Below, in pieces: positions 22,672-64,000 of a stretch of DNA of 64,000 nucleotides. Position 1 is the stretch's first letter; each line of letters begins with the position of its first letter. Made by a program: the position numbers and the translations under genes. The notes beneath the pieces are model-generated. The model saw only the letters and a program-made list of their open reading frames with translations, was not told the DNA's origin and did no database searches. This DNA comes from Hymenobacter monticola (GTDB lineage Bacteria > Bacteroidota > Bacteroidia > Cytophagales > Hymenobacteraceae), in NCBI RefSeq assembly GCF_022811645.1, contig NZ_CP094534.1, positions 3,658,001 through 3,722,000 of the forward strand, written 5' to 3'.

Positions 22672-25413
22672 TTACAGCCGCTTCACGCTGGAAGGGCCAG
22701 TCGAGTCGAGGTCCACGTTCTTAGGCTTGCCGCTGTAGGCAATTTCGCTGGCGCCCACGGCTTCACCCTTGATGCGGTCCGACACGTTGAGGCGGGCCTT
22801 GCACACGCCGGCCACGTCCACGGTGGCGGTGCGGGTGGCGAGGTTGGCGGCGGCCAGCTCGCAGGCGCCGGCGGCGTCGAGGTCGAGCACATCGGCGCGG
22901 CCGGTGGCGGTGGTGCGGCAAGCACCGGCTTGCTGCACTTTCAGGGTACCATAGTCGCCGTTGAGGCGCAGGTGGCTGGCGCCGGCCTGCTCCACACGCA
23001 GCTCCTCCTGGCGCTCGAAGCCGCCGAGGTCGGCCTGCACCGAGCCGGCCAGCTCAATGCGCTCAATGCTGGGCAGCTCGATGACGATGAGTACCTTCTT
23101 GTCGCTGTTGTTCCACTTGCCGCCAAACAGCGACGTGTTATTGCGCGACTTGATTTGCAGCTCGTCGCCGTCGCGCTCCATGCGGATGTCGCTGAGCACG
23201 CCCTCGCTGCTGCCAGCGGCCTCCACCTTGTAGTTGTCGCCGCGGCGCACCACCACGCGGTAGCCGCCCACCACGCTCACGCGGTTGAAGCCGCTCTCCT
23301 CGAAGCTGCGGCGGCTGCTGCCATAGCTGTTCAGGTCGGTGTCGAAGGAAGGGGCACCGCCGTAGTTGAGCGAGATGCCTTCCTTGTTGTCGCCGTCTTC
23401 GTCGTTGCTATCGCCCTCGTCGGAGCTGCTGTCGTCGGTGTTGATGTCGACATTCACGTCGGAGTCAGAATCCTCCGTTTGCAGCTCCACGCCCATGTCT
23501 TCGTCGGTGCAGCCAATGCACTCCAGCTTGTTGCCGCGCAGGCGGTAGCGGTGCGTTTCGGGGTCTTCGGGGCGGTGGTTGTTGGCGAAGTCTTCATCGC
23601 GGAGCAGGTCGTAGGCGAAGTCGCGGCCCAGGCGGAAGGTGCGGTCGCGGGGCAGGCGCAGGGTCACGGTCAGCTCCTGACGGCGGTACTTGGCGTCGGG
23701 CAGGAAGGAGAAATGGTCGTCGAGCACCAGCGAAGAGTCGCCGCTGGTCCGGATGGTGTAGTCGATGGTGGTGAGGGCGTTGCGGCGGGCTGCTTCTTCG
23801 CTGGCGCCGTGGGCGCCCATGGTACGCAGCACTTCCACCGTCTTGCCGCTATCCACGCCCACAATGCGCAGTTCCACGTGCTGCTCCCACTGGCGGTCGA
23901 CGTGGCGGCGGTCCAGCATGATTACCGGCGTCGTGAGCTTGGGGTAGCGCTCCGACTGCTCCACCGTGGTTTCGTACTGAAATTCACGGCTTTGCTGGGC
24001 AATGGCGGCCACCAGGCCCACAATGCTCAGCAGCCACAGGCCCAGCAGCGACAGGCTCACCGTGCGCGGCATGAGGGAGCGGCGGAACAGCAGGTTCAGC
24101 CCGCCCAGCAGCAGCGACAACGAGGGAATGCCAAGGGCCAGGAATCCGGCCAGAATTCCCCAGGAGGGCACGCCATTCAGCATCACGTGCGCCGGTGCAT
24201 CGCCCAACACAATGTTTTGCGAATGGGGCAGTAGGCCAATGCCCACGCCCAGTGCGATGGCCAAGCCCACCAGCAGGCTAAATCCGGTAATAGTCAAAAC
24301 AATGCCGGCAAAAATTCGAATGGCCGAGCCCACGAAGTTCACGGCCGGGCGCAGGTTGCGGGCCGCATCTTCCACGAAGGCGCCCACGGGCCGGTTTGTC
24401 GTCACGGGTCCCTCGGCAAACGCGTTGTTGCGGGCGCTGCTGTCGAAGCTTTCCAGCGTGATGTCGTCGCCGCGCATGCGCAGCTTGTCCGAGACCGTTT
24501 TGGCCTCGGGCAAGACTATCCAGAGAATGATGTAGAGCATGAGCGTGAAGCCCCCGGCAAACAAGCCGGCCAGCAGTAGCACCCGCACCAGCGTCACGTC
24601 GATGTTGAAGTAGGCGCCCAGGCCTGCGGCCACGCCGGCGATTTTAGCCGTGCCGGTGTCGCGGAAGAGCTTGCGGCCGGCCAGCGGGCCTTGGTTCAGC
24701 ATGGCATCGGTGGGGGCGGGGGCGTCGTAGCGCTTGGGCAGCAAAATCCAGAGGATGACGTAGGCCAGGAACGCCCAGCCGCCGAACTGGAAGTGGAAGT
24801 CGCCGTCGTGGAAATTGAGGGCCCCAAACAAGCCGGGCAAGATGAACACCAGGGCCAGCCAGCCCAGGCGCACCCACACCGGGTTCACGGCGAAGTACTG
24901 GGCCATGCCCGCGGCCACGCCGGCTATTTTGCGGTGGGCCATGTCGCGGTACAGGCGCTTGGGCTCGGCAGGGGCGGCGTCGGCAGACGTGGCGCCGGGG
25001 CCGAAAGCACCTTCGGGGCCAAAAGGACCCTTGCGGCCAAACGTACCCTCGGGGCCGAAGGGCCCTTTGGTGCCAAACGCACCCTCGGGACCAAACGCGC
25101 TGGCGCTGCTGGCGGTGGCGGTTTCTTCCACGTCCTCGGCGTCGAGGTCGTCGGTGGCGAAGTCGCTCACGCGGCCCATCTTGGCCACCATGGCGTTCAC
25201 GTCGTCGAGGGTGATGACCTGCTGCATGGGCGAGAGGCGCACCGAAAACAGCTCGGCAATGCGGCCCTCGATGTCGGTCACGATGTCTTCGTGGCCGCGG
25301 TAGTTGGCGAAGTGCGCCTTCACCTCGGCCAGGTAGCGGCTGAGCACCTCAAAACCGTCTTCCTCGATGTGGAAGATGATGCCTTGCAGGTTGATGCTGA
25401 TGTTCTTTTTCAT
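22672..25413 (-). CDS. PspC-domain membrane protein with C-terminal GIN (DUF2807) domain
   Basis: 913 residues. The N-terminal 100 residues (MKKNISINLQGIIFHIEEDG) resemble the usual start of Bacteroidota PspC proteins. Residues 107-140 are a tandem FGPEG/FGTKG-type repeat. Two PspC domains follow (about 152-210 and 246-305; LYRDMAHRKIAGVAAGMAQY and LFRDTGTAKIAGVAAGLGAY), then further transmembrane segments (about 360-470), a predicted periplasmic region with an acidic stretch rich in Asp/Ser, and a GIN domain rich in GAS-type beta-turns (ELAGSVQADLGG, VQQAGACRTTATG). PspC proteins are linked to envelope stress in other bacteria. It follows a PadR regulator by about 60 bp, so the regulator probably controls it. 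No catalytic motif was seen. Confidence 0.87.
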   Translation of the reverse strand: MKKNISINLQGIIFHIEEDGFEVLSRYLAEVKAHFANYRGHEDIVTDIEGRIAELFSVRLSPMQQVITLDDVNAMVAKMGRVSDFATDDLDAEDVEETATASSASAFGPEGAFGTKGPFGPEGTFGRKGPFGPEGAFGPGATSADAAPAEPKRLYRDMAHRKIAGVAAGMAQYFAVNPVWVRLGWLALVFILPGLFGALNFHDGDFHFQFGGWAFLAYVILWILLPKRYDAPAPTDAMLNQGPLAGRKLFRDTGTAKIAGVAAGLGAYFNIDVTLVRVLLLAGLFAGGFTLMLYIILWIVLPEAKTVSDKLRMRGDDITLESFDSSARNNAFAEGPVTTNRPVGAFVEDAARNLRPAVNFVGSAIRIFAGIVLTITGFSLLVGLAIALGVGIGLLPHSQNIVLGDAPAHVMLNGVPSWGILAGFLALGIPSLSLLLGGLNLLFRRSLMPRTVSLSLLGLWLLSIVGLVAAIAQQSREFQYETTVEQSERYPKLTTPVIMLDRRHVDRQWEQHVELRIVGVDSGKTVEVLRTMGAHGASEEAARRNALTTIDYTIRTSGDSSLVLDDHFSFLPDAKYRRQELTVTLRLPRDRTFRLGRDFAYDLLRDEDFANNHRPEDPETHRYRLRGNKLECIGCTDEDMGVELQTEDSDSDVNVDINTDDSSSDEGDSNDEDGDNKEGISLNYGGAPSFDTDLNSYGSSRRSFEESGFNRVSVVGGYRVVVRRGDNYKVEAAGSSEGVLSDIRMERDGDELQIKSRNNTSLFGGKWNNSDKKVLIVIELPSIERIELAGSVQADLGGFERQEELRVEQAGASHLRLNGDYGTLKVQQAGACRTTATGRADVLDLDAAGACELAAANLATRTATVDVAGVCKARLNVSDRIKGEAVGASEIAYSGKPKNVDLDSTGPSSVKRL
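24994..25095 (-). repeat. In-frame FGPEG-type tandem repeat
   Basis: About six units of five or six residues (FGPEGA, FGTKGP, FGPEGT, FGRKGP, FGPEGA, FGPG) are encoded by 18-bp repeats within the PspC/GIN gene. This is a flexible linker between the N-terminal domain and the first PspC domain and could vary in copy number between strains. Confidence 0.85.
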
Positions 25414-49155: not shown

Positions 49156-52100
49156 TATTTCACTACCTCGAACCAGTTTTTGATGCTGGTGCCGTTGGGC
49201 AGTTTCAGTAGGTAGAAGTACTGGCCGGCGGCAATGCTTGGGTCGTCGCCCCAGTTGTTCTGGTAGTTGGTGGTGCTGTACACCTCGCGGCCCCAGCGGT
49301 TGAACACAGTGAAGGTGTTGCCGGGGTAGAGGGCGATGTTGTCAATCACCAGCACGTCGTTCTGCCCGTCGCGGTTCGGCGTGATGATGTTGTACACCTT
49401 GGTGTCGCCGGAGAACTGCACAGTGGTTTCGTTCGAGTTGGAGGTGAAGTTCAGCGGGGTGCCGTTGATGAAGGCAATGACCCGGAATTTCTGCTCAAAC
49501 CCGAAGCCCGAAGCCGTGGCATTGCCATCGGTATTTGAGATGGTGGCTTGCAGAACATTGCCCGGCACGCGGAGCACTTCGGTCCCGGCGTTGGCATCCA
49601 AGCGGCGAACGATGATGTATTCGCTAACCGTGGCTCCTGCATAAGCATTCCAGCTCAGGGCCACGCTGCCTTGGTTGCGGCCGCCCGTGCCGGGCGAGGC
49701 CACGGCCACCAGGCGCACCGTCTGCACCACCGAGCTCGAAATGAGGTTGCCGCAGCCGTTGGTCAGGTCGAGGCGGTACTCGTAGGTGTTGGCGTTGGCA
49801 TCCACGTTGGTGGCATCGGTGTAAGTAATCGACGATACCGGCGTTTGGCCCACGGCCACGAATGCCCCGCTGCCCGCCACGCGGCGCATGATTTGCACCT
49901 GGTTGGGGGTGTTGGTGGCGCCCGTAGTGCGCAGCGTCAGCACAATGCGGTTGTTGCTGGCAATGTCGACCGAGCCCAGCGTGAGCGCAATGCCGGGGCT
50001 GTCGAACAGCACCGTGCGGGTGGCGGCAGCGCTGGGGCAGGAGGCCGGGCTGGCACTCACTTCCTGCACGCTCACCGAGTACGGGCCCGTGGCATTGAAG
50101 CGCACCGTGACGGTGCTGGCCGTGAGCGGCGTGGAGGTGATGGTGCCGCCCACGATGGTCCACTGATAGCTGGCGCCCGGGGTGGGGTTAGCCACGGCGT
50201 ACTGCTGGGTCTGGGCCACGTTGCACACAAAGCCCGAGCCCGAGATGACGGGCGTGGCCGGCGTGGGGTTCACGGTGAAGGGAGCCGTGTAGAGCGGGCC
50301 TGCGCAGCCGGCCGAAGTGGTTTCCTGCACCGTGAGGGTGTAGTTGCCGGGGGCGGGCAGCGTGTTCAGGGTGCGGGTGCTGCCGGTACCGACCAGCGTG
50401 GTGCCGCTCAGGATGAAGCTATAGGTCGAGCCCGTGAAGCCGCCCGGCAGGGCAAACGTGACGGGGCCGCTGCCCTGGCACACCCGTGCCGGAGCGGTGA
50501 TGGTCAGGTTGGTGCGCGGCGAGGGGTTGATGAGCACGCGCAGCGTATCGGACGTGCCCAGGCAGCGCACGCCGCTTGCGGGGTTGCTGGTTTCCGTCAC
50601 CACAATCTTGCCGATGGTGGGCGTCGTCACCGGGGCCCAGTTCACCGTCACCGTGTTCTGGAAAGTGCTCACCTGCGTGCCGCCGATGATGGTCCAGCCA
50701 TACGTCGAGCCGTTGGCAAACGAGCCACTGGTGTAGGTGTAGGGGCCATCGGCCTGGCACACCGAGCGGGGCAGCGGCGCCACGGCCACCACGTCGCCGG
50801 GGCCGGTGGGGCGCACCGTTTGCAGGCGCGGGTTAATGACGATGGGCAGCGTGGTCGTGTCCGAAGAGCAGCCCTGGGCGTTCAGGCGGAACACCTTCAC
50901 GTAGCCGCCCGTTTGGGCCGGGCCCCAGTTCACGGTGATGGCCGCTGTGCCCTGACCGGTGGCAATGGTGCCGCCGTTAACCAGCCAGGTATAAGCAGTG
51001 CCGGCCGGCGTGGGCACCGAGTAGGCAATGCCCGTCACGGTGGGGCATACCGAAGCCGGGCCCACGATGGACTCCGGTGCCGGGCGCGGGTTGATGGTCA
51101 CGACCACCGTGCTGGTGCTTACGCAGCCGCTGGCGGTGGTGGCCGTCAGGGTGTAGGTGCGGGTGATGGGGGTGGTTCCGGTGTTCACGCCCAGCAGCAC
51201 GGGCTGGGCCACGGTGGCACTGCTCAGGTTGGTGGCCGGGCTCCAGCTGTAGGTGTAGCCAGCTACCGGGACCGTACCCAGGGTTACCCGCTTGCCGTCG
51301 CACACGGCCACGGCCGGGCCGGCGTTGGCGGTCGAGGCCGGGTTCACGGTCACGGTCACGGTGCCGGTGGCCACGCAGCCATTGGCGGTGGTGGCCGTCA
51401 GGGTGAAGGTCGTGACGATGGGCGTGTTGGTCGTGTTGGCCAGCGTGAAGGTAGGGTTGGCAACCGATGCGCTGCTCAGGCCGGTGGCCGGGCTCCAGCT
51501 ATAGGTGTAGCCAGCCACCGGGGCGGCGCCCAGCGTAACGGCGTTGTTCGAGCAGGTCGTCTGGTTGGCGCCGGTCACGGCCACTGCGGCGGGGTTAACA
51601 GTTACAATCACCGTATCGCGCTGGAAGCAGCCGTTGCTCGTCGTCGCCAGCAGAATGTATTGCTGGGTGATGTTGGCGCCCGTCGTGTTGGGCAGGGTCA
51701 CCGTCGGGTTCAGCACCGAGGCACTGCTCAGGCCCGTGGCGGGGCTCCAGGTGTAAGTCGTGCCCGTCACAGCGGTGCCGGCACCAATGGTCGTGGCCAC
51801 GTTCGAGCAGGTTGCCTTGTCTGGGCCAGCCTGGGCCACAGCGGCGGGGTTCACCGTCACTACTACCGTGCTAGTGGCCGTGCAGCCGTTGGCCGTGGTG
51901 GCCGTCAGGGTATAAGTCTGGGTGATGTTGGCGCCGGTCAGGTTGGGCAACGTCACGGTGGGGTTCAGTACCGAAGCGCTGCTTAGGCCCGTAGTGGGCG
52001 TCCAAGCATAGGTGGTGCCGGCCACAGCCGTGCCGGTGCCGATGGCGACGGGCACGTTTGAGCAAGTCGATTTCGCTACGCCGGCTTGGGCCACGGCGGC

Positions 52101-55100
52101 TGGGTTGACGGTCACGGCTATGGTGCTGGTGGCGATGCAGCCGTTAGGCGTCGTAACTGTCAGGGTGTAGGTGGTGGTGATGGGCGCGCCGGTGGTGTTG
52201 GTCAGGGTAACGGTTGGATGCGGGCCCGAAGTATTATTCAAACCCGTAGAGGGACTCCAGGTGTAAGTATTACCGGTTAGGGCTACGCCGCCGCCCAGTA
52301 TCCGGCTTTCGCCCGAGCAGAAAGCTAACGCTGGTCCCCCCGCATTGGCTACGGCAGCGGGGACTATAGTCACAACCACGGTGCTGGTAGCGGTGCATCC
52401 CTGGGCTGTGGTAGCCGTCAGGGTGTAGGTCTGGGTGATATCGCCGCCAGTCAGGTTGGGTAGGGTCACGGTTGGGGTCAACACCGAGGCGCTACTCAAG
52501 CCCGTGGTGGGGCTCCAAGCGTAGGTGGTGCCGGCCACAGCCGTGCCGCTGCCGATTGTCACGGGCACATTCGGACAGGTCGACTTAGCCAAGCCAGCGT
52601 CGGCCACAGCGGCGGGGTTGATGGTCACTACCACCGTGCCCGTGGCCACGCAGCCGTTGGCCGTGGTGGCCGTCAGCGTGTAGGTGGTGGTGATGGGCGC
52701 GCCGGTGGTGTTGGTGCCGGTTGCGGTCGGGTTCAGGATGTTGGGGTTGCTGAGGCCCGTAGTCGGGCTCCAGCTATAAGTAGTGCCCGCTACTGGGGTG
52801 GCCGAGCCACCGAGGGGTGCCGAGGTCGTGCCCGAGCAGAAGCTGATGGCCGGGCCGGGCGTGGCCACGGCAGCCGGGTTCACCGTCACCACCACCGAAG
52901 ACGTGGCCGAGCAGCCCGTCGCATCGGTGGCCGTCACGGTATAAGTCTGGGTGATGGGGGCGCCCGTCGTGTTGGGCAGCGTTACCGTCGGTTGCGCAGC
53001 GGTCGCGCTGCTCAGGCCGGTGGCCGGGCTCCAGCTATAGGTGTAGCCAGTGAGGGCCGTCGTGCCAATGGAGGCCGAAGCCACACCCGAGCAGGTGCTC
53101 AGGGCCGGGCCGGCGTTGGCGGTGGCGGCGGGGTTCACCGTCACGCGCACCGTGCCCACGCTGGAGCAGTTGCTGCCCACCGTTACGGTCAGGGTATAAA
53201 TCTGGACGATGGGGGCGTTGGTGGTGTTGGGCAGGGTCACGGTGGGGTTGGCCACGGTGGTGCTGCTCAGGCCAGTGGCCGGGCTCCAGGCATAGGTAGC
53301 GCCCGCAATGGGCGTGCCGCCGAGCGGCGTCGAGGCCACACCGGGGCAGATGGTACGGTCGGCGCCGGCGTTGGCCGTGGGCGGAGGCGTCACGGTCACG
53401 GTCACGGTGTTCGAGATGTTGCAGGTGCCGTCGGTACCCGTCACGGTGTAGGTCGTCGTGGCCGTGGGGGTCACGGTCACGGTGGTGCTGGTCGAGTTCA
53501 AGCCCCCGCCGGTCCACACGTAGGTGAGGCCGGCCTGGCCCGCCACGGTGAGGGTGGTGCTGCCGCCCAGGCAGATGGTGGGCGCGGCGGCCGTCACCGT
53601 GAGGGCGGGCAGCGGGCGGATGTCTACCGTTTTCACCACCGAGTCGGTGGGGCAGCCGCGCGAGGAAATGCCCCTCAGCACCAGCGTGCCGGTGGTGTTG
53701 GCACTGTTCCAGGTCACGTTCACCGCGTTGGTGCCCTGGCCGCTGCTGATGGTGCCGTTCCGCACGGTCCAGTTGTAGGAGGTGGGCACCGGGCCGGCGG
53801 CGGTGTAGGTGCGCACCGTGGCGGGGTCACACACCGTGGCCGGACCGTTGATGGCGTTGGGGCCCGCCGCGCGCGTCACCGTAATGCGGAACACATCGGC
53901 GGCAATCTTGCCGCCGCAGCCGTTGTCCTTCACCGTCACGGCAATGTCGTAGGGCGTGGCGCGGGCGTTGCCGCAGGCCGAGTTGAACACGAACGTGCCC
54001 GTTACCGTGCCGGTGCCGGAGGCCGTGGCCGTGCCGGTTCCGGTGCCGGCCTGTACCGTGCCCGTGTTGTTGTTGAAAGTGGTGTTAAAGGGCCCGCTCC
54101 CGTCCAGCAGCACGCTGTTGGCCGTGAGCACCAGGGGGTGGCCCGGGGTGCTGGCCTGGGTGGCCGTGATGGGGATGCTCAGCGACTGCCCTTCTTCAAT
54201 GGTGTAGCTGCGGGGGGTGCTGATGGTAGAGGGCAATACGGGCGGCGGCGTGGTCGGGCAGGTCGACACCACGAGTTGCAGGTCGCGTCGGGTGGTGCCA
54301 ATCAGTACCTCACGGCCGTTGATGTTGCGGTATTCCTGCACGTCCACGGCCACCACGTAGAGGCCGTTGGTGGTGGCGCCGTACTTGGCTACCCCGGTGC
54401 TGGCGTTGAGCAACGCAAAGTTGCCCGGGCCTGTGCCGAAAGGCGTGGCCGAACTGTAGCTGGAATTAAAATAGGGGGTGGTAGCAAACGTAGGCGGCGT
54501 GGTCGTGATGTTGGTTACGTTGCTGTACGGGGTGCCGAAAGAGTACGCCAGCCGGTCGCCGTCGGCATCCACCGCGTTGTTGAGCGAAATGGTGGTGTCG
54601 TTCTGGCAAACAATGGCCACGGCCGTGTCGGAAAAAACCGGCGAGCGGTTCGAGATGAGCGGCGGGGCCATGCTCACGTACAGCGTCATGTTCTGGTTGC
54701 CCGAATTGGACAGGTTGGCGATGCCGGCGTTGCGCGCCCCCAACGTGAAGGTGGCGTAGTAGCCATCAAACGACACCGGCAGGTTCACCACCTGGATGTA
54801 CTTGCACAGGTAGAAGGGCTGGCTGGGGCCCTGCACAGTGCAGCCCGCCGGCACCGCCGGCGAGATGGGCGGCGGCAGGGCGCCTGATGTCGACGGCGTC
54901 GTCCTGTTAATATTAAACGGGGGGAGACTAGCGCCGGTGGTCCGGTTGTAAATGGTAACGGTGGCGTTGGGCGGCGGCGGCGCTATACTGCCGGGGTTGG
55001 TGCTGTAGAGGCCGTTGCTGTAAACGGTGACCGTGATTTCGTAGCGAAACGGAGCGGTCGTGGGGCCGTTGGCGTCCAGGTAACGGTAGCTCATTTCACC

Positions 55101-58884: not shown

Positions 58885-60612
58885 CTACATCGCGGCCTTC
58901 TGGGCCAGCTTCACGGCTTCGTACATGTCCACCACGCCGCCGGTCACTGACAGCGTGCTGAAATCGGTTTGCTTGTCGGTGCCGGGCACGCGCACCTGGG
59001 TGTGGTGCACCTGAGCCGACTGCATGATGATGCGCTTCAAGTCAGCAGCCGTGAGCTTGGGGAAGTACGACTTGAGCACCGCCGCCACGCCGGCCGTGAC
59101 GGGTGAGGCCATGCTGGTGCCGCTTTCGTTGCCGAAGGTGCTGCCGGGCAGGGTGCTGAAAATGCCCACGCCGGGCGCAAACACGTCGACCGCCTTCTTG
59201 CTGTAGTTGGAGAAATCGGCGGGCAGGGCGGCGTTGTCTTTCGGGCCCGAGGCGCCCACGGTGAGCAGGTTGGGCACCGTGGCCTTGTTCATATAGAAGG
59301 AGGCTGGGTAGTTGTCGCTCACATCGAGGTTCTGGTTCTCGTTGCCGGCGGCGTGCACCAGCAGCACGTTTTTGGCGGCGGCGTACTTGAAGGCGGCCTC
59401 CACGGCGGCGCGCTGGGGCGAGAACTCCTTGCCGAAGCTCATGTTGATGATGCTGGCGCCGTTGTCGACGGCGTAGCGAATGGCGTTGGCAATGTCCTTG
59501 TCGCGCTCGTCGCCGTCGGGCACGGCGCGTACCGTCATGATGCGCACCGGGGCGGGGGCCAGGCCCTGCACGCCGAGGTTGTTGTCGCGCACAGCCGCGA
59601 TGATGCCCGACACGTGGGTGCCGTGCATGGGGTCGGGGCCGTGCAGGTCGTTGTTGCCGTAGTAGCGCTCGGTCACGTCCTCGGGGTTGTCCTTCACGAT
59701 GTCGGCCCGTGGGTTGAATTTCAGATTCAGCGAGTTGTCGAGCATGTTGCGTTCCTGCTTCACGCCCTCGTTGAGCTGAGCGAGCAACGCGTCGGCGTCG
59801 GCGGCGCCGGTCTGGCGCATCATTTCCAGCATGCCCCCGATGGCGCGCTTCAGGTTGGGGTCGTCGGGGTTGGCGTTTTTCAGGGCCACGGTGTCGAGTT
59901 TCTCGGTGCCGAGGGCCTGCTTCATGGCCGCCACCATCTGGGTGAGGGGGCCGGCCATGCTTTCCACCTCCTTGTTGCGCTCGGTTTCCTCGGCCAGGCG
60001 GTTTTTGTAGGCCTTTTCGGCTTTCTGATACAGGGCGTAGTCGGCCTTTTCGGTGGGCTTCACCGTGGCAGCGGTTTTGCCCTTGAAGCGCACCCGGCCG
60101 GCGGCCACAATGCGCGTCATTTCCAGGGTTTCGGCGTTCACATTGCGGCCGTCGGGGCCGCCGAGGAAGTTCCAGCCGTGCACGTCGTCGATGTAGCCGT
60201 TCTTGTCGTCGTCGATGCCATTGCCCGGGATTTCCTTGGTATTGGTCCACAAAACCGGCTTCAAATCAACGTGGGCCGTGTCAATGCCCGAGTCGATGAC
60301 GGCCACCACGATGGGCGTGGGCGTCAGCGTTTTCAGCAGTTCGGCATAGGTGCGGGTGGCGCCCACGCCGGGCACTTTGTCCAGCTCGGGGTCTTTGAGG
60401 TACCATTGGGCGGCGCTTTGGTCGCCGATGGGGGCGGGCTTGGCCGGGGCCGGCGTTTCGGGGGCCACGGGGGCGGCCGGCGCCGCGGTGGGCACGCTCA
60501 CGGCAGCCGAAGCAGCGGTGCTGGCCTGGGGCCGGCGGGCGCACGAAGAAAACAGCGTGGCGGCCAGCAGCAGCGGCACCGATACGCGGGGGAAATTCAA
60601 GCTTGGCGTCAT
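58885..60612 (-). CDS. S8-family (subtilisin) protease, lipoprotein
   Basis: 575 residues. A lipoprotein signal (LLLAATLFSSC) has the lipid Cys at residue 24, followed by an Ala/Pro/Thr-rich linker. The catalytic triad is Asp107 in VVAVIDSGIDTAH, His333 in DPMHGTHVSGIIAA and a Ser in GTSMASPVTAG near residue 510. An insertion of about 170 residues, mostly helical and charged (KADYALYQKAEKAYKNRLAE and onward), lies between the Asp and His blocks, placing this in the long-insert S8 group common in Bacteroidota. It would be anchored in a membrane and cleave proteins in the envelope. The start at 60612 begins the signal peptide. Confidence 0.93.
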   Translation of the reverse strand: MTPSLNFPRVSVPLLLAATLFSSCARRPQASTAASAAVSVPTAAPAAPVAPETPAPAKPAPIGDQSAAQWYLKDPELDKVPGVGATRTYAELLKTLTPTPIVVAVIDSGIDTAHVDLKPVLWTNTKEIPGNGIDDDKNGYIDDVHGWNFLGGPDGRNVNAETLEMTRIVAAGRVRFKGKTAATVKPTEKADYALYQKAEKAYKNRLAEETERNKEVESMAGPLTQMVAAMKQALGTEKLDTVALKNANPDDPNLKRAIGGMLEMMRQTGAADADALLAQLNEGVKQERNMLDNSLNLKFNPRADIVKDNPEDVTERYYGNNDLHGPDPMHGTHVSGIIAAVRDNNLGVQGLAPAPVRIMTVRAVPDGDERDKDIANAIRYAVDNGASIINMSFGKEFSPQRAAVEAAFKYAAAKNVLLVHAAGNENQNLDVSDNYPASFYMNKATVPNLLTVGASGPKDNAALPADFSNYSKKAVDVFAPGVGIFSTLPGSTFGNESGTSMASPVTAGVAAVLKSYFPKLTAADLKRIIMQSAQVHHTQVRVPGTDKQTDFSTLSVTGGVVDMYEAVKLAQKAAM

Positions 60613-60730
60613 ACGAAAGGAAAAAGGCCACGCAACCGGGCGGCCGGGAGTTGAAGAACGAAGATATAAGGGACTGAACACGTAATCGGGCTAAAGACGT
60701 GCCCACGGGTCCAATGTTGCGCCCAGCAGC

Positions 60731-61123
60731 TCAACCAACGGCCCCTTGCGGCCCGGCCACCACCAGCAGCAGGGCGTCTTCGGCGGCGGGGGTGAGGCGC
60801 CAGTAACGGTACAGGCTGCGGTATTCCCAGGTTGTCAGGTCAAGTTCGCCGAGGCGCACGGCCACGCGGGCGGCGGCCCGGGCGGGCAGGCTGGCCGCCT
60901 CGGCTAGTTCGGCGGTGGTGCGCTCGGGATACTGCATCAGAGCCAGCAGCATGAGCCGCAAGCGCAGGCGCCCGCGCTTGTCACGCACCTTATAGGTCTT
61001 CAACAGCCAGTCCTCGATGCGGGCCTGCACGGCGGCGGGCTCCATGCTGAGCGGGGGAGGGGGCGGCGGGTTGTCGCGCTCGGCCACGCGGCGAGCAAAG
61101 GCGGTGGGGAGGTTGTCGGGCAT
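60731..61123 (-). CDS. Hypothetical protein, possibly winged-helix
   Basis: 130 residues. A proline run follows the N-terminus (RDNPPPPPPLSMEPAAVQ). The remainder (LLALMQYPERTTAELAEAASLPARAAARVAVRLGELDLTT) has the spacing of a helix-turn-helix of winged-helix type, and the next part (YRSLYRYWRLTPAAEDAL) could be a wing. I do not recognise the family. If it binds DNA, the array of 21-bp repeats just upstream is an obvious candidate target, but this is speculation. Confidence 0.68.
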   Translation of the reverse strand: MPDNLPTAFARRVAERDNPPPPPPLSMEPAAVQARIEDWLLKTYKVRDKRGRLRLRLMLLALMQYPERTTAELAEAASLPARAAARVAVRLGELDLTTWEYRSLYRYWRLTPAAEDALLLVVAGPQGAVG

Positions 61124-61158
61124 GTGGTAGGGCCGGGGATGAGTAAGCCGGTAAAATA

Positions 61159-61368
61159 GCTGGCTAATTTAATGTATCATCAGGCTAATTTATCTAATTA
61201 TCTGGCTAATTAACTGCAAATCCTGGCTAATTAACCGAAAAATCTGGCTGATTGATAGCAACGTCTGACTAATTAACCGGAAACGCTGACTAACTAATTT
61301 CAATACCCGGCTAACTAGTCGCAATATCTGGCTAATTAAGCGGAAGGGCTGGCTAACTTGCCTCTTGC
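61159..61368. repeat. Ten tandem 21-bp AT-rich repeats
   Basis: Ten units of exactly 21 bp start at 61159 and continue every 21 bp. Each begins with a CTGGCTAATTAA-like core; the remaining nine bases vary. Units 3, 4 and 9 have the full core; others differ by one to five bases, and unit 10 (61348-61368) is the most degenerate. The array is far more AT-rich than its surroundings. Read on the minus strand, units 3-10 give a heptad pattern (for example IFRLISQ), and units 1 and 2 carry stop codons in that frame. No gene can be assigned. Confidence 0.92.
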
Positions 61369-61386: not shown

Positions 61387-61494
61387 GCGCCTCACCCCCC
61401 CGGCCCCCTCTCCGAAAAGGAGAGGGGGTGCGTTCTGGCAAAGCAGACGTCTGGCACCCTTCTCCTTTTCGGAGAGGGACCGGGGGTGAGGCGC
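61387..61494. repeat. Inverted repeat, CCTCACCCCC family, copy 3
   Basis: The arms at 61387-61421 and 61462-61494 are near-complementary (GCGCCTCACCCCC start). It lies between the tandem array and the PIG-L gene start. Confidence 0.83.
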
Positions 61495-61538
61495 GCCGTT
61501 GAACGGTAACTTCACGCCTCAATTCTGGTTTCCCGCGC

Positions 61539-64000
61539 ATGATTCGTTCCTTACGCCCGCTGCTCGCGGCCCTGCTGCTGCCCCTCACGGCCCTGGCCCA
61601 AACGCCCAAAACCTACACCTCCTCCGAAATCCTGCTGGGCCTCAAGAAGCTCAACGTGCTGGGCTCGGTGATGTACCTGGCCGCCCACCCCGACGACGAA
61701 AACACCCGCCTCATCGCCTACCTGGCCAACGAGCGCCTGCTCGAAACCAGCTACCTGAGCTGCACCCGCGGCGACGGCGGCCAGAACCTCATCGGCCCCG
61801 AGCTGCGCGAAGGCCTCGGCGTGATTCGCACGCAGGAGCTGCTGGCGGCGCGGCGGCTCGATGGCGGCCGGCAGTTCTTCACCCGCGCCAACGACTTCGG
61901 CTTCTCGAAAACCTCCGACGAAACCTTCCGCATCTGGGACAAGGAGCAGGTGCTCGCCGACATGGTGTGGGTCATCCGCCAGCGCCGGCCCGACGTGCTC
62001 ATCACCCGCTTCCCGCCCGATGCCCGCGCCGGCCACGGCCACCACCAAGCCAGCGCCATCCTCGCCGCCGAAGCCTTCGACGCCGCCGGCGACCCCAAGC
62101 GCTTCCCCGAACAGCTCCAGTACGTGCAAGCCTGGCAGCCCAAGCGCCTGCTCTGGAACACCGGCAGCTTCTTCGTGAAGCCCGGCGAAAACATGGACGG
62201 CTACCTCAAGCTCGACGCCGGCGGCTACAACCCCCTGCTGGGCCAGAGCTACGGCGAAATCGCGGCCCGCAGCCGCAGCAACCACCGCAGCCAGGGCTTC
62301 GGCTCGGCCGCCCAGCGGGGCGAGGCGCTGGAGTATTTCCAGCCCGTGAAAGGCGACAAGGCCACCAAAGACCTGTTCGAAGGCGTGGACCAGACCTGGA
62401 ACCGCGTGCCCGGCGGCGCGGCCGTGGGCAAGCTCATCGAGGAGGTGATTCGCAAGTACGACCCAAGCAACCCCAGCGCCAGCGTGGCGGGGCTGCTGAA
62501 GGTGCGGGAAGCGGTAGAAAAGATGGTTTCTTCTTCTTACAACAGCCAAGCAACTCGTGATTCAAATGCGACATTCTGGGCCTTGGAAAAAGAAGCAGAA
62601 GTGCAAACACTAATTCAGGCAGCCTCGGGTATTTATGTTGATGCTGTTGCAGATGTTCCCACTGCAGTGGCAGGGCAGAAGCTGATTATTAATCTGGAAG
62701 TCGCAAACAGAGCAACAGCACCACTAAAAATCAATTCCATCAGTAGTTTCGGTTTGGTATCTATTGACACAGCCTTTGAAAAACCAATTGTCGTTGATGC
62801 CGGCAAAGCTTTACGGATGCCATTGCATGGTACTGTAAGCACATTCTTGTCAAGCGACGGTTTCGCGAAGGGAGCGAAGAAACGTGACATCAAAGAGAAA
62901 CAATATCCTGCTTTTTCCCAGCCGTATTGGTTGTTAGAAAAAGGCTCAGTTGGAATGTATGCCATCCCCAACCAGTATGTTGTTGGTCGCACAACCTTGT
63001 ACCCGCCGTTGAGCGCAATTTCATCATCTGGTTCCGGTGGAATGCAAAACGTTGTTACACCAGGTCAACACTTGATTGGAAACGCAGAGAATGGACCAAT
63101 TGCCAGTATCGCAGTATTTACATCAGCAGGTAATGCATCAATTCTGGGTTCTGCTATTCAATACAAACACACCGACCCGGTGCTGGGCGAATTATACCAG
63201 CCGCTGGCCGTGGTGCCGCCCGTGCTGGTGAACCTGCCGCCCGCCCGTTCCTACGTCTTCGCCGATGCCCAGCCCAAGACCGTGCCCGTCACGCTGCGGG
63301 CCGGGCGCGCCGGGGTGAGCGGCCGCCTGGCCCTGGCCCTGCCCGCCGGCTGGAAGTGCGAGCCCGCCACCGCCGACTTCGCCCTCGCCGCCAAAGACGA
63401 GGAGTTGACCGTGAACTTCCAGGTGCAGCCCCTGGCCGGCGCCGCGCCCGGCCGCGCCGAGCTGCGCGCCACCGCCACCGTGGCCGGCCAGGCCTACGCC
63501 CGCGGCATCCAGAAGATTGAGTACCCGCACATCCCCACGCAGTTCCTCTTCCCCGAGGCCGTGGCCCCGCTGGTGAAGCTCGACCTGAAGCGGCGCGGCC
63601 AGAACGTGGCCTACCTCATGGGCGCCGGCGACGAAGTGCCCGATGCCCTGCGCCAAATTGGCTACAACGTGACGCTACTGAAACCTGAGGAGCTGAACGC
63701 CGCCAACCTGAAAAAATATGATGCCCTGGTGCTGGGCGTCCGCGCCTACAACACCGTGGACCGGCTCAAAACCCAGCAGCCCGAAATCCTCAAATACATC
63801 GAGCAGGGCGGCAACGTGGTGGTGCAATACGTGGTGAACCGCGGCACCGTGATGCCCGAAATCGGCCCCTACCCGATGAGCCTCAGCACCGACCGCGTGA
63901 CCGTGGAAGATGCCCCCGTGACCCTGAAGAAGCACCAACTGCTGGCCGCCCCCAACAAAATCACCGAGCAGGATTTCCGCGGTTGGGTGCAGGAGCAGGG
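61539..64000 (+). CDS. PIG-L/LmbE-type deacetylase, exported (3' end outside window)
   Basis: The frame is open from the ATG at 61539 to the window edge (more than 820 residues). A signal peptide (LAALLLPLTALAQ) is followed by the PIG-L domain with metal motif AAHPDDENTR (His50, Asp52, Asp53), SCTRGDGGQN and the second ligand region ARAGHGHHQASA. The long C-terminal part after residue 330 resembles the extended PIG-L proteins of Bacteroidota, with GATase-like and beta-sandwich regions (ALVLGVRAYNTVDRL). PIG-L enzymes remove acetyl groups from GlcNAc-like sugars; here the substrate is unknown. A low-GC block at 62525-63170 within the gene stands out. Confidence 0.88.
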   Translation, partial: MIRSLRPLLAALLLPLTALAQTPKTYTSSEILLGLKKLNVLGSVMYLAAHPDDENTRLIAYLANERLLETSYLSCTRGDGGQNLIGPELREGLGVIRTQELLAARRLDGGRQFFTRANDFGFSKTSDETFRIWDKEQVLADMVWVIRQRRPDVLITRFPPDARAGHGHHQASAILAAEAFDAAGDPKRFPEQLQYVQAWQPKRLLWNTGSFFVKPGENMDGYLKLDAGGYNPLLGQSYGEIAARSRSNHRSQGFGSAAQRGEALEYFQPVKGDKATKDLFEGVDQTWNRVPGGAAVGKLIEEVIRKYDPSNPSASVAGLLKVREAVEKMVSSSYNSQATRDSNATFWALEKEAEVQTLIQAASGIYVDAVADVPTAVAGQKLIINLEVANRATAPLKINSISSFGLVSIDTAFEKPIVVDAGKALRMPLHGTVSTFLSSDGFAKGAKKRDIKEKQYPAFSQPYWLLEKGSVGMYAIPNQYVVGRTTLYPPLSAISSSGSGGMQNVVTPGQHLIGNAENGPIASIAVFTSAGNASILGSAIQYKHTDPVLGELYQPLAVVPPVLVNLPPARSYVFADAQPKTVPVTLRAGRAGVSGRLALALPAGWKCEPATADFALAAKDEELTVNFQVQPLAGAAPGRAELRATATVAGQAYARGIQKIEYPHIPTQFLFPEAVAPLVKLDLKRRGQNVAYLMGAGDEVPDALRQIGYNVTLLKPEELNAANLKKYDALVLGVRAYNTVDRLKTQQPEILKYIEQGGNVVVQYVVNRGTVMPEIGPYPMSLSTDRVTVEDAPVTLKKHQLLAAPNKITEQDFRGWVQEQ

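Follow-up and report, generated by a model that had tools for sequence, protein, structure and literature searches.

Regulators of the MarR and ArsR families usually read operators made of one or two palindromes, and the iterons of plasmids, tandem direct repeats of about 20 bp, are found together with winged-helix Rep initiators. Winged-helix proteins are also described as occupying longer tracts of DNA: BldC of Streptomyces, a MerR-like protein, assembles on direct repeats with one helical turn per subunit (PMC5859096), AspA, from the partition system of pNOB8, coats a stretch of over 200 bp ahead of the gene that encodes it (PMC5120986), and RdfS forms filaments (PMC11963761). Here we report on a stretch of 64,000 nucleotides of Hymenobacter monticola (NZ_CP094534.1, positions 3,658,001 to 3,722,000; hereafter the window), in which an array of ten 21-bp units (61159..61368) lies upstream of a minus-strand gene (60731..61123) for a protein of 130 amino acids with a predicted winged helix of the MarR/ArsR fold, putatively the protein that binds the array. 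In our judgement the array is likely to be a cognate multi-site operator, private to the adjacent winged-helix gene, along which the protein would assemble on one face of the DNA to control its own promoter.

The array, read on the minus strand like the gene, consists of ten units of exactly 21 bp, with no indel, and starts 35 bp ahead of the start codon of the winged-helix gene. Its identity at lag 21 is 0.64, against a mean of 0.26 and a maximum of 0.37 in 5000 mononucleotide shuffles, and among lags 10 to 63 only 21, 42 and 63 exceed 0.42, which confirms the exact period of the original prediction; the AT-richness that it had noted in GC-high surroundings is equally borne out (GC content 0.40, versus 0.63 for the window as a whole). 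The output of Tandem Repeats Finder (TRF) split the array into two rows. The proposed repeat core stood in part: a conserved core exists, but the 12-mer put forward for it, CTGGCTAATTAA, occurs exactly in three units and has no other copy in the genome, and the true core is the shorter TGGCTAA, which reads TTAGCCA(G) in the direction of the neighbouring winged-helix gene. A search of the same genome for targets in trans, made with pairs of cores 21 bp apart and thus blind to single sites elsewhere, gave nine matches with at most one mismatch, all of them within the array; when two mismatches are allowed the count rises to 28, of which 10 fall in the array, and the reversed control yields 9.

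The winged-helix protein belongs to a little-studied family. A search of 5.8 billion proteins returned 111 relatives, the named ones from Hymenobacter, and H. ruricola and H. siberiensis are among the named relatives of the locus. The AlphaFold model (59-row alignment, pLDDT 89.3) is a winged helix, in which residues 81-93 would form the recognition helix and 97-110 the wing; its structural matches in Foldseek and VIA are MarR and ArsR regulators, as well as AspA (4rs8) and TrmBL2, and the predicted structure has the winged helix-turn-helix fold of MarR/ArsR regulators. No solved structure with a sequence relationship to the window protein was found, nor does this protein match any family profile at E<=0.01, a threshold at which 17 of 59 family members match MarR_2 (best 7.4e-7). 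Family matches occur in 35 of 204 Hymenobacteraceae genomes, 70 in total and up to eight genes per genome; among the matches listed from 390 genomes of the order, those with E below 1e-30 are confined to two genera, and the remaining ones begin at 6e-9 and resemble general winged helices. A full-text literature search, by which subscription papers were mostly not covered, gave no description of such Hymenobacter arrays or of this winged-helix family.

What ties the array to the gene is its recurrence across the family. From the 70 matches we scored 62 distinct loci, having left out G118, whose array sequence and protein are the same as those of G029, the fragments or unmatched pieces L089, L092, L093, L094 and L095, and the weak, unfetched matches G159 and G065. 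An array was called when its score exceeded 20 bits after a penalty for model size; the framing used a fixed period and short margins, which would miss distant units that are out of register. By this measure 57 of the 62 loci carry an upstream array, 168-378 bp long (median 231), with a period of 21 in 41 arrays, 42 in 13, 43 in two and 41 in one. In all 59 upstream regions with enough DNA the top autocorrelation period is 20-22 or 41-43, which holds for 5 of the 59 regions downstream of these genes and for 33 of 242 tiles of the window, and autocorrelation reaches at least 0.46 in 53, 4 and 16 of these, respectively; none of 15 unrelated winged-helix genes, taken from the matches of the same profile, exceeds 0.41 at period 21 or 42. 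Spacing between cores is strict: among 361 spacings of 17-25 bp, 356 measure exactly 21 bp and five, all within the two 43-bp arrays, measure 22; further spacings comprise 91 of 41-43 bp, one of 63 and 12 odd ones. The gene fragments L092 (G083), L093 (G074) and L095, which have sufficient upstream DNA, and the relic L091 (G089) have no array, as if gene and array decayed together; the frameshifted gene L090 retains its array, and L089 starts at a contig edge.

Within the arrays, columns are conserved more unevenly than uniform decay predicts in 42 of the 57. In L026, L046 and L068, whose proteins are 2-4% apart and whose four-fold sites differ by 17-21%, the arrays stay in register over 252 bp, and identity is 0.69-0.81 in the cores versus 0.37-0.47 in the spacers. 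The spacers evolve fast; the core and the 21-bp ruler stay. The original prediction had allowed for a neutral satellite lacking conservation in relatives, which is not what the data show, and we regard a neutral satellite or a dead coding repeat as unlikely.

Family loci are spread over several intergenic sites: 17 lie between the PIG-L and protease genes, as in the window, 13 at mutS2/DUF2400, 7 at purM, 6 at a FUSC-like gene, 4 at thyA and one at aroC, with 14 loci bearing no site label (the names mutS2, DUF2400, aroC and thyA come from NCBIfam or Pfam, and purM was read from sequence). The gene is accompanied by its array at no fewer than six sites. A role of the PIG-L gene is not supported, as the array accompanies the winged-helix gene at several other sites. 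Repeated relocation was set aside: an earlier tree pointed to frequent moves between sites, but the approximately unbiased test does not reject one common origin for the members at mutS2 (p-AU 0.449), and therefore we claim co-occurrence at these sites and not a number of moves.

The sequence of the core differs between paralogues, and it does so together with the recognition helix rather than with the site. Seven proteins, five at the PIG-L/protease site and two at mutS2/DUF2400, have a recognition helix with R-A-A-A-R-V, and all seven arrays carry TTAGCC, most weakly in L037 (AGcC); at the PIG-L site, a different helix goes with a different core, for instance CCTGAcAAG for RGAxRT. Mean array similarity is 0.69 between loci with the same helix at different sites (10 pairs, all from the RAAARV group) versus 0.36 between loci with different helices at the same site (103 pairs), a contrast reached in none of 5000 site-stratified permutations. 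Among pairs with comparable identity in the rest of the protein (0.55-0.70), those that share a helix score 0.62-0.71 and those that do not score 0.35-0.41. Because the helix labels were assigned once the table had been seen, we also ran a label-free scan of the protein, in which pairs are not independent of one another. Over 173 pairs of 55-80% identity, the top eleven of 124 six-residue windows start at residues 79-89 and belong to the recognition helix, while the one ranked twelfth, at 101, belongs to the wing. After partialling out identity in the rest of the protein (333 pairs), places 1 to 4 of 125 go to windows 85-89, and windows 64-68, which lead into helix 2, come next. The array-similarity signal thus lies mainly in the recognition helix, helix 2 and the wing, and since the core varies in step with the DNA-reading part of the protein, each family protein probably reads its own array.

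The Bacteroidota -7 promoter element has the consensus TAnnTTTG, to which we take TA[TC]CTT to be similar, and this motif is present between -60 and -12 at 20 of the 57 family loci versus 0-3 in each of six control windows. It is absent from that interval at the window locus, where a weak candidate -7 element, TATTTTAC, can be proposed from sequence at 61151..61158 (minus strand), between the array and the start codon. At the 21 loci where the looser TA[TC][CT]TT is found, its median position is -38, and in 18 of them it stands at or downstream of the array end; the array would therefore lie mostly upstream of the start site.

Several observations weigh against the operator reading. Five of the 62 loci fall short of the array threshold (one cut by a contig edge, one a gene relic, one with a short upstream region, and two weak, L051 and L052), the -7-like element appears in only about a third of loci, and the contrast between core and spacer is absent from the pair L022/L040 (0.67 and 0.64). 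Most sites of MarR dimers are palindromic, and the units of the 57 arrays are not: their similarity to their own reverse complement is 0.36 versus 0.37 for a reversed control, and on this ground a palindromic operator was rejected. When the RAAARV group is removed, the best windows of the protein scan are in the wing (101), at the helix end (89) and, equally, at residues 41-46, outside the helix-turn-helix. The tree rejects neither the RAAARV proteins (p-AU 0.298) nor the mutS2-site members as one clade, so that independent changes are few, and because gene and array are linked, cores would follow the protein lineage by shared history alone. Finally, arrays without a winged-helix gene exist, and genome G024 has one upstream of its transketolase gene and no family gene.

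If the operator reading holds, each 21-bp unit, equal to two helical turns, would carry one site for the winged-helix protein, and because of this length all sites would fall on one side of the DNA, where neighbouring subunits or dimers would touch and bind cooperatively as a row. With the array placed immediately ahead of the promoter region of the winged-helix gene, array occupancy most likely sets transcription of that gene, and the control would probably be steep autorepression. A length of 21 bp fits the span of one MarR-type dimer; an asymmetric assembly would be as likely, because the units are not palindromic. We infer binding, the number of subunits per unit, the filament and the sign of control. 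The earlier proposal, of many sites spaced two turns apart on one face of the helix next to a winged-helix gene whose product probably binds them, gains support from the 57 of 62 family loci and from array similarity that tracks the recognition helix.

How does this arrangement compare with the systems already described? Autoregulated MarR/ArsR regulators share the fold, the size and an operator at their own promoter, a role that the array would play here; they differ from it in that the array is a long series of non-palindromic direct repeats. Iteron-Rep systems differ in that the Hymenobacter arrays are chromosomal and have no Rep-type protein, the window protein being a single winged helix of 130 amino acids; relatives of the protein are absent from the plasmid, phage and IMG/VR collections searched, with no match in 72,556 plasmid records. 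BldC resembles the inferred assembly as a small winged-helix protein whose subunits join head to tail along variable numbers of direct repeats, on roughly one face of the DNA (PMC5859096). Its repeats are of 9 bp, with one helical turn between subunits (PMC5859096), unlike the two-turn, strictly 21-bp units present here in 8-18 copies upstream of the protein's own gene, and the one-turn spacing of the BldC family is not seen here, 356 of 361 core spacings of 17-25 bp being 21 bp. BldC is moreover MerR-like, whereas the fold of the Hymenobacter protein matches MarR/ArsR. AspA, a structural match of the window protein (4rs8), is likewise a winged-helix protein; its site lies ahead of the gene that encodes it, and the DNA that it covers exceeds 200 bp. 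It nucleates on one 23-bp palindrome and spreads (PMC5120986), whereas here a core is present in every unit and the units are not palindromic. The adjacent parB and parA of the AspA-ParBA system have no counterpart in the flanks of about 1.5-2 kb, which hold a subtilisin-like and a PIG-L gene in the window and differ at other loci.

A broader picture, which we consider less likely than not, is that of self-contained modules, in which a gene and its private array would travel between intergenic sites, giving rise to many distinct pairs per genus, each re-tuned through the recognition helix with the 21-bp ruler kept fixed; the product would form a nucleoprotein filament in phase with the helix, and arrays that lack the gene would be other filament sites of a genus-wide 21-bp system. 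By analogy with AspA on plasmid pNOB8, the protein could instead coat the array as a nucleoprotein filament that serves chromosome organisation, anchoring or self-maintenance, with autoregulation a secondary effect. We consider this structural role unlikely: the annotated flanks examined hold no ParA/ParB-like partner, no relatives were found in the plasmid and phage collections, and the module is dispensable, because only 35 of the 204 genomes of the bacterial family Hymenobacteraceae have a match.

A further explanation would have the array independent of the protein, as a repeat-generating or structural DNA feature of many intergenic sites, behind which winged-helix genes merely happen to lie in some cases. 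In a sample of 1.664 Mb of the same genome (27% of 6.1 Mb, window included), eight arrays of period 20, 21 or 42 lack strong codon-phase GC: the window array, the array of a paralogue and six elsewhere. These eight belong to 14 arrays of low codon-phase GC, of which the other six (periods 14, 15, 18, 18, 24 and 33) were judged by eye, on composition only, to be coding or simple. With six of the eight away from the gene family, the class of arrays is wider, and the winged-helix family, though nearly always accompanied by such an array, is not alone in this. The non-family arrays include ones upstream of an APC-type permease, serC and a transketolase gene (named by eye from translations) and one between gene ends; arrays are present at serC in 5 of 30 genomes and at transketolase in 6 of 30, their cores being alike in some genomes and unlike in others, and G024, as said, has its transketolase array but no family gene in the whole genome. 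All this speaks for an independent feature, which we nonetheless find improbable in view of the very strong bias to the family (57 of 62 loci versus about one array per 200 kb), the tracking of core similarity by DNA-reading residues, and the lack of shared cores between gene-less and family arrays of the same genome (mean 0.26, control 0.26, in 44 pairs, five of them void through a wrongly cut serC array of G011).

Some details of these gene-less arrays deserve mention. Degenerate arrays of the 21-bp type in the G000 samples are found at L173:1132-1426, L174:15780-15950, L175:5108-5330, L183:8040-8500, L197:11990-12240 and L240:11850-12075; several non-family arrays of G000 lie directly upstream of housekeeping genes, and some have 20-bp steps. 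The transketolase-upstream arrays (L279, L281, L285, L286 and L287) have a 42-bp period and cores that look palindromic by eye and differ between genomes, of the GTACGCGCGTAC type in G000, G011 and G025 and of the TTGCAA..TTGCAA type in G114 and G024. Open frames run through some gene-less arrays, and single ones may be of coding origin.

For the family arrays themselves, descent from a decayed coiled-coil gene, whose heptads of 7 codons would span 21 bp, is very improbable. True coding heptad arrays of this period do exist in the genus: L318:7886 and L314:8213 (G020) are coiled-coil genes with near-perfect 21-bp heptads, such as KLADVDI, which confound scans for 21-bp arrays, and both 21-bp arrays in a 400-kb sample of G020, a genome with no family gene, are coding heptads. 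Moreover, one or more of the six frames is open in 26 of the 57 arrays, where mononucleotide shuffles predict 6.6; this null is too strict, because open frames become correlated when the repeat is 7 codons long. The once-coding origin that the first reading had suggested on the minus strand was not upheld by a comparison between units, since the synonymous share there, although the highest, is 0.33 against 0.15-0.29 in the other five frames; the stops that it had noted in that frame are indeed present, in 2 of the 10 units. Conserved columns cluster with a correlation of 0.23 at lag 1 and 0.03 at lag 3, no conserved reading frame of the kind expected of coding heptads was found, and a coding origin was rejected on the synonymous share, on the codon-phase information contrast, which is absent over 54 arrays (0.209 observed, 0.251 permuted), and on the three arrays of period 41 or 43, which break a frame. 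Least probable is a transcribed leader whose units act as successive RNA elements: predicted folding of the window array is slightly more favourable than that of shuffled sequences (z -2.8) and 9 of the 57 arrays fall below -2 on the gene strand, but there is no general fold signal (mean z -0.74) and no Rfam match, and the array would be outside the transcript because the -7-like element, at loci that have one, is mostly downstream of it.

The neighbours of the window locus lie outside the module. The winged-helix gene on the minus strand and, on the plus strand, an exported, divergent PIG-L-type gene that is still open at the end of the window (61539..63998) agree with the original prediction. 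On the other side is a subtilisin-like protease gene (58885..60681, minus strand), assigned from its sequence and a related flank. The PIG-L gene was found in 117 of the 120 Hymenobacter genomes searched, mostly without the module, and in six genomes without the gene the protease and PIG-L are directly adjacent, with gaps of 61, 116, 157, 171, 181 and 213 bp and no array. Some other genomes have different genes there, and the gap is an insertion hot spot (L102, L108, L111, L112, L113, L122 and L124), holding a gene of about 270 amino acids with a zinc-ribbon-like start, a RAYT-like transposase (L113 and L122) or another gene, all named by eye. In the window, about 170 bp separate the array from the PIG-L gene, and a large inverted repeat lies in between (61387-61500), with the centre CCTCTCC-N5-GGAGAGGG; this centre recurs at nine places in the genome, with none for the reversed control, and looks like a REP-type element. 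Other tandem repeats of the window lie at 24996-25098 (period 18, 103 bp) and 51336-53400 (period 255).

Most bacterial regulators read one or two palindromes; in the family described here, each protein is matched to a long array of its own, in strict phase. Arrays of this period that lack the gene suggest a broader class of intergenic elements, of which our literature searches found no description, and a 21-bp ruler that stays fixed while spacers change fast offers a stringent test of how proteins line up on a single side of the helix. If the operator reading is true, dozens of natural protein-operator pairs with different specificities would stand side by side in one genus, the code by which MarR-type helices recognise DNA and the evolution of new specificity would become directly testable, and the family would be a source of orthogonal cooperative switches.
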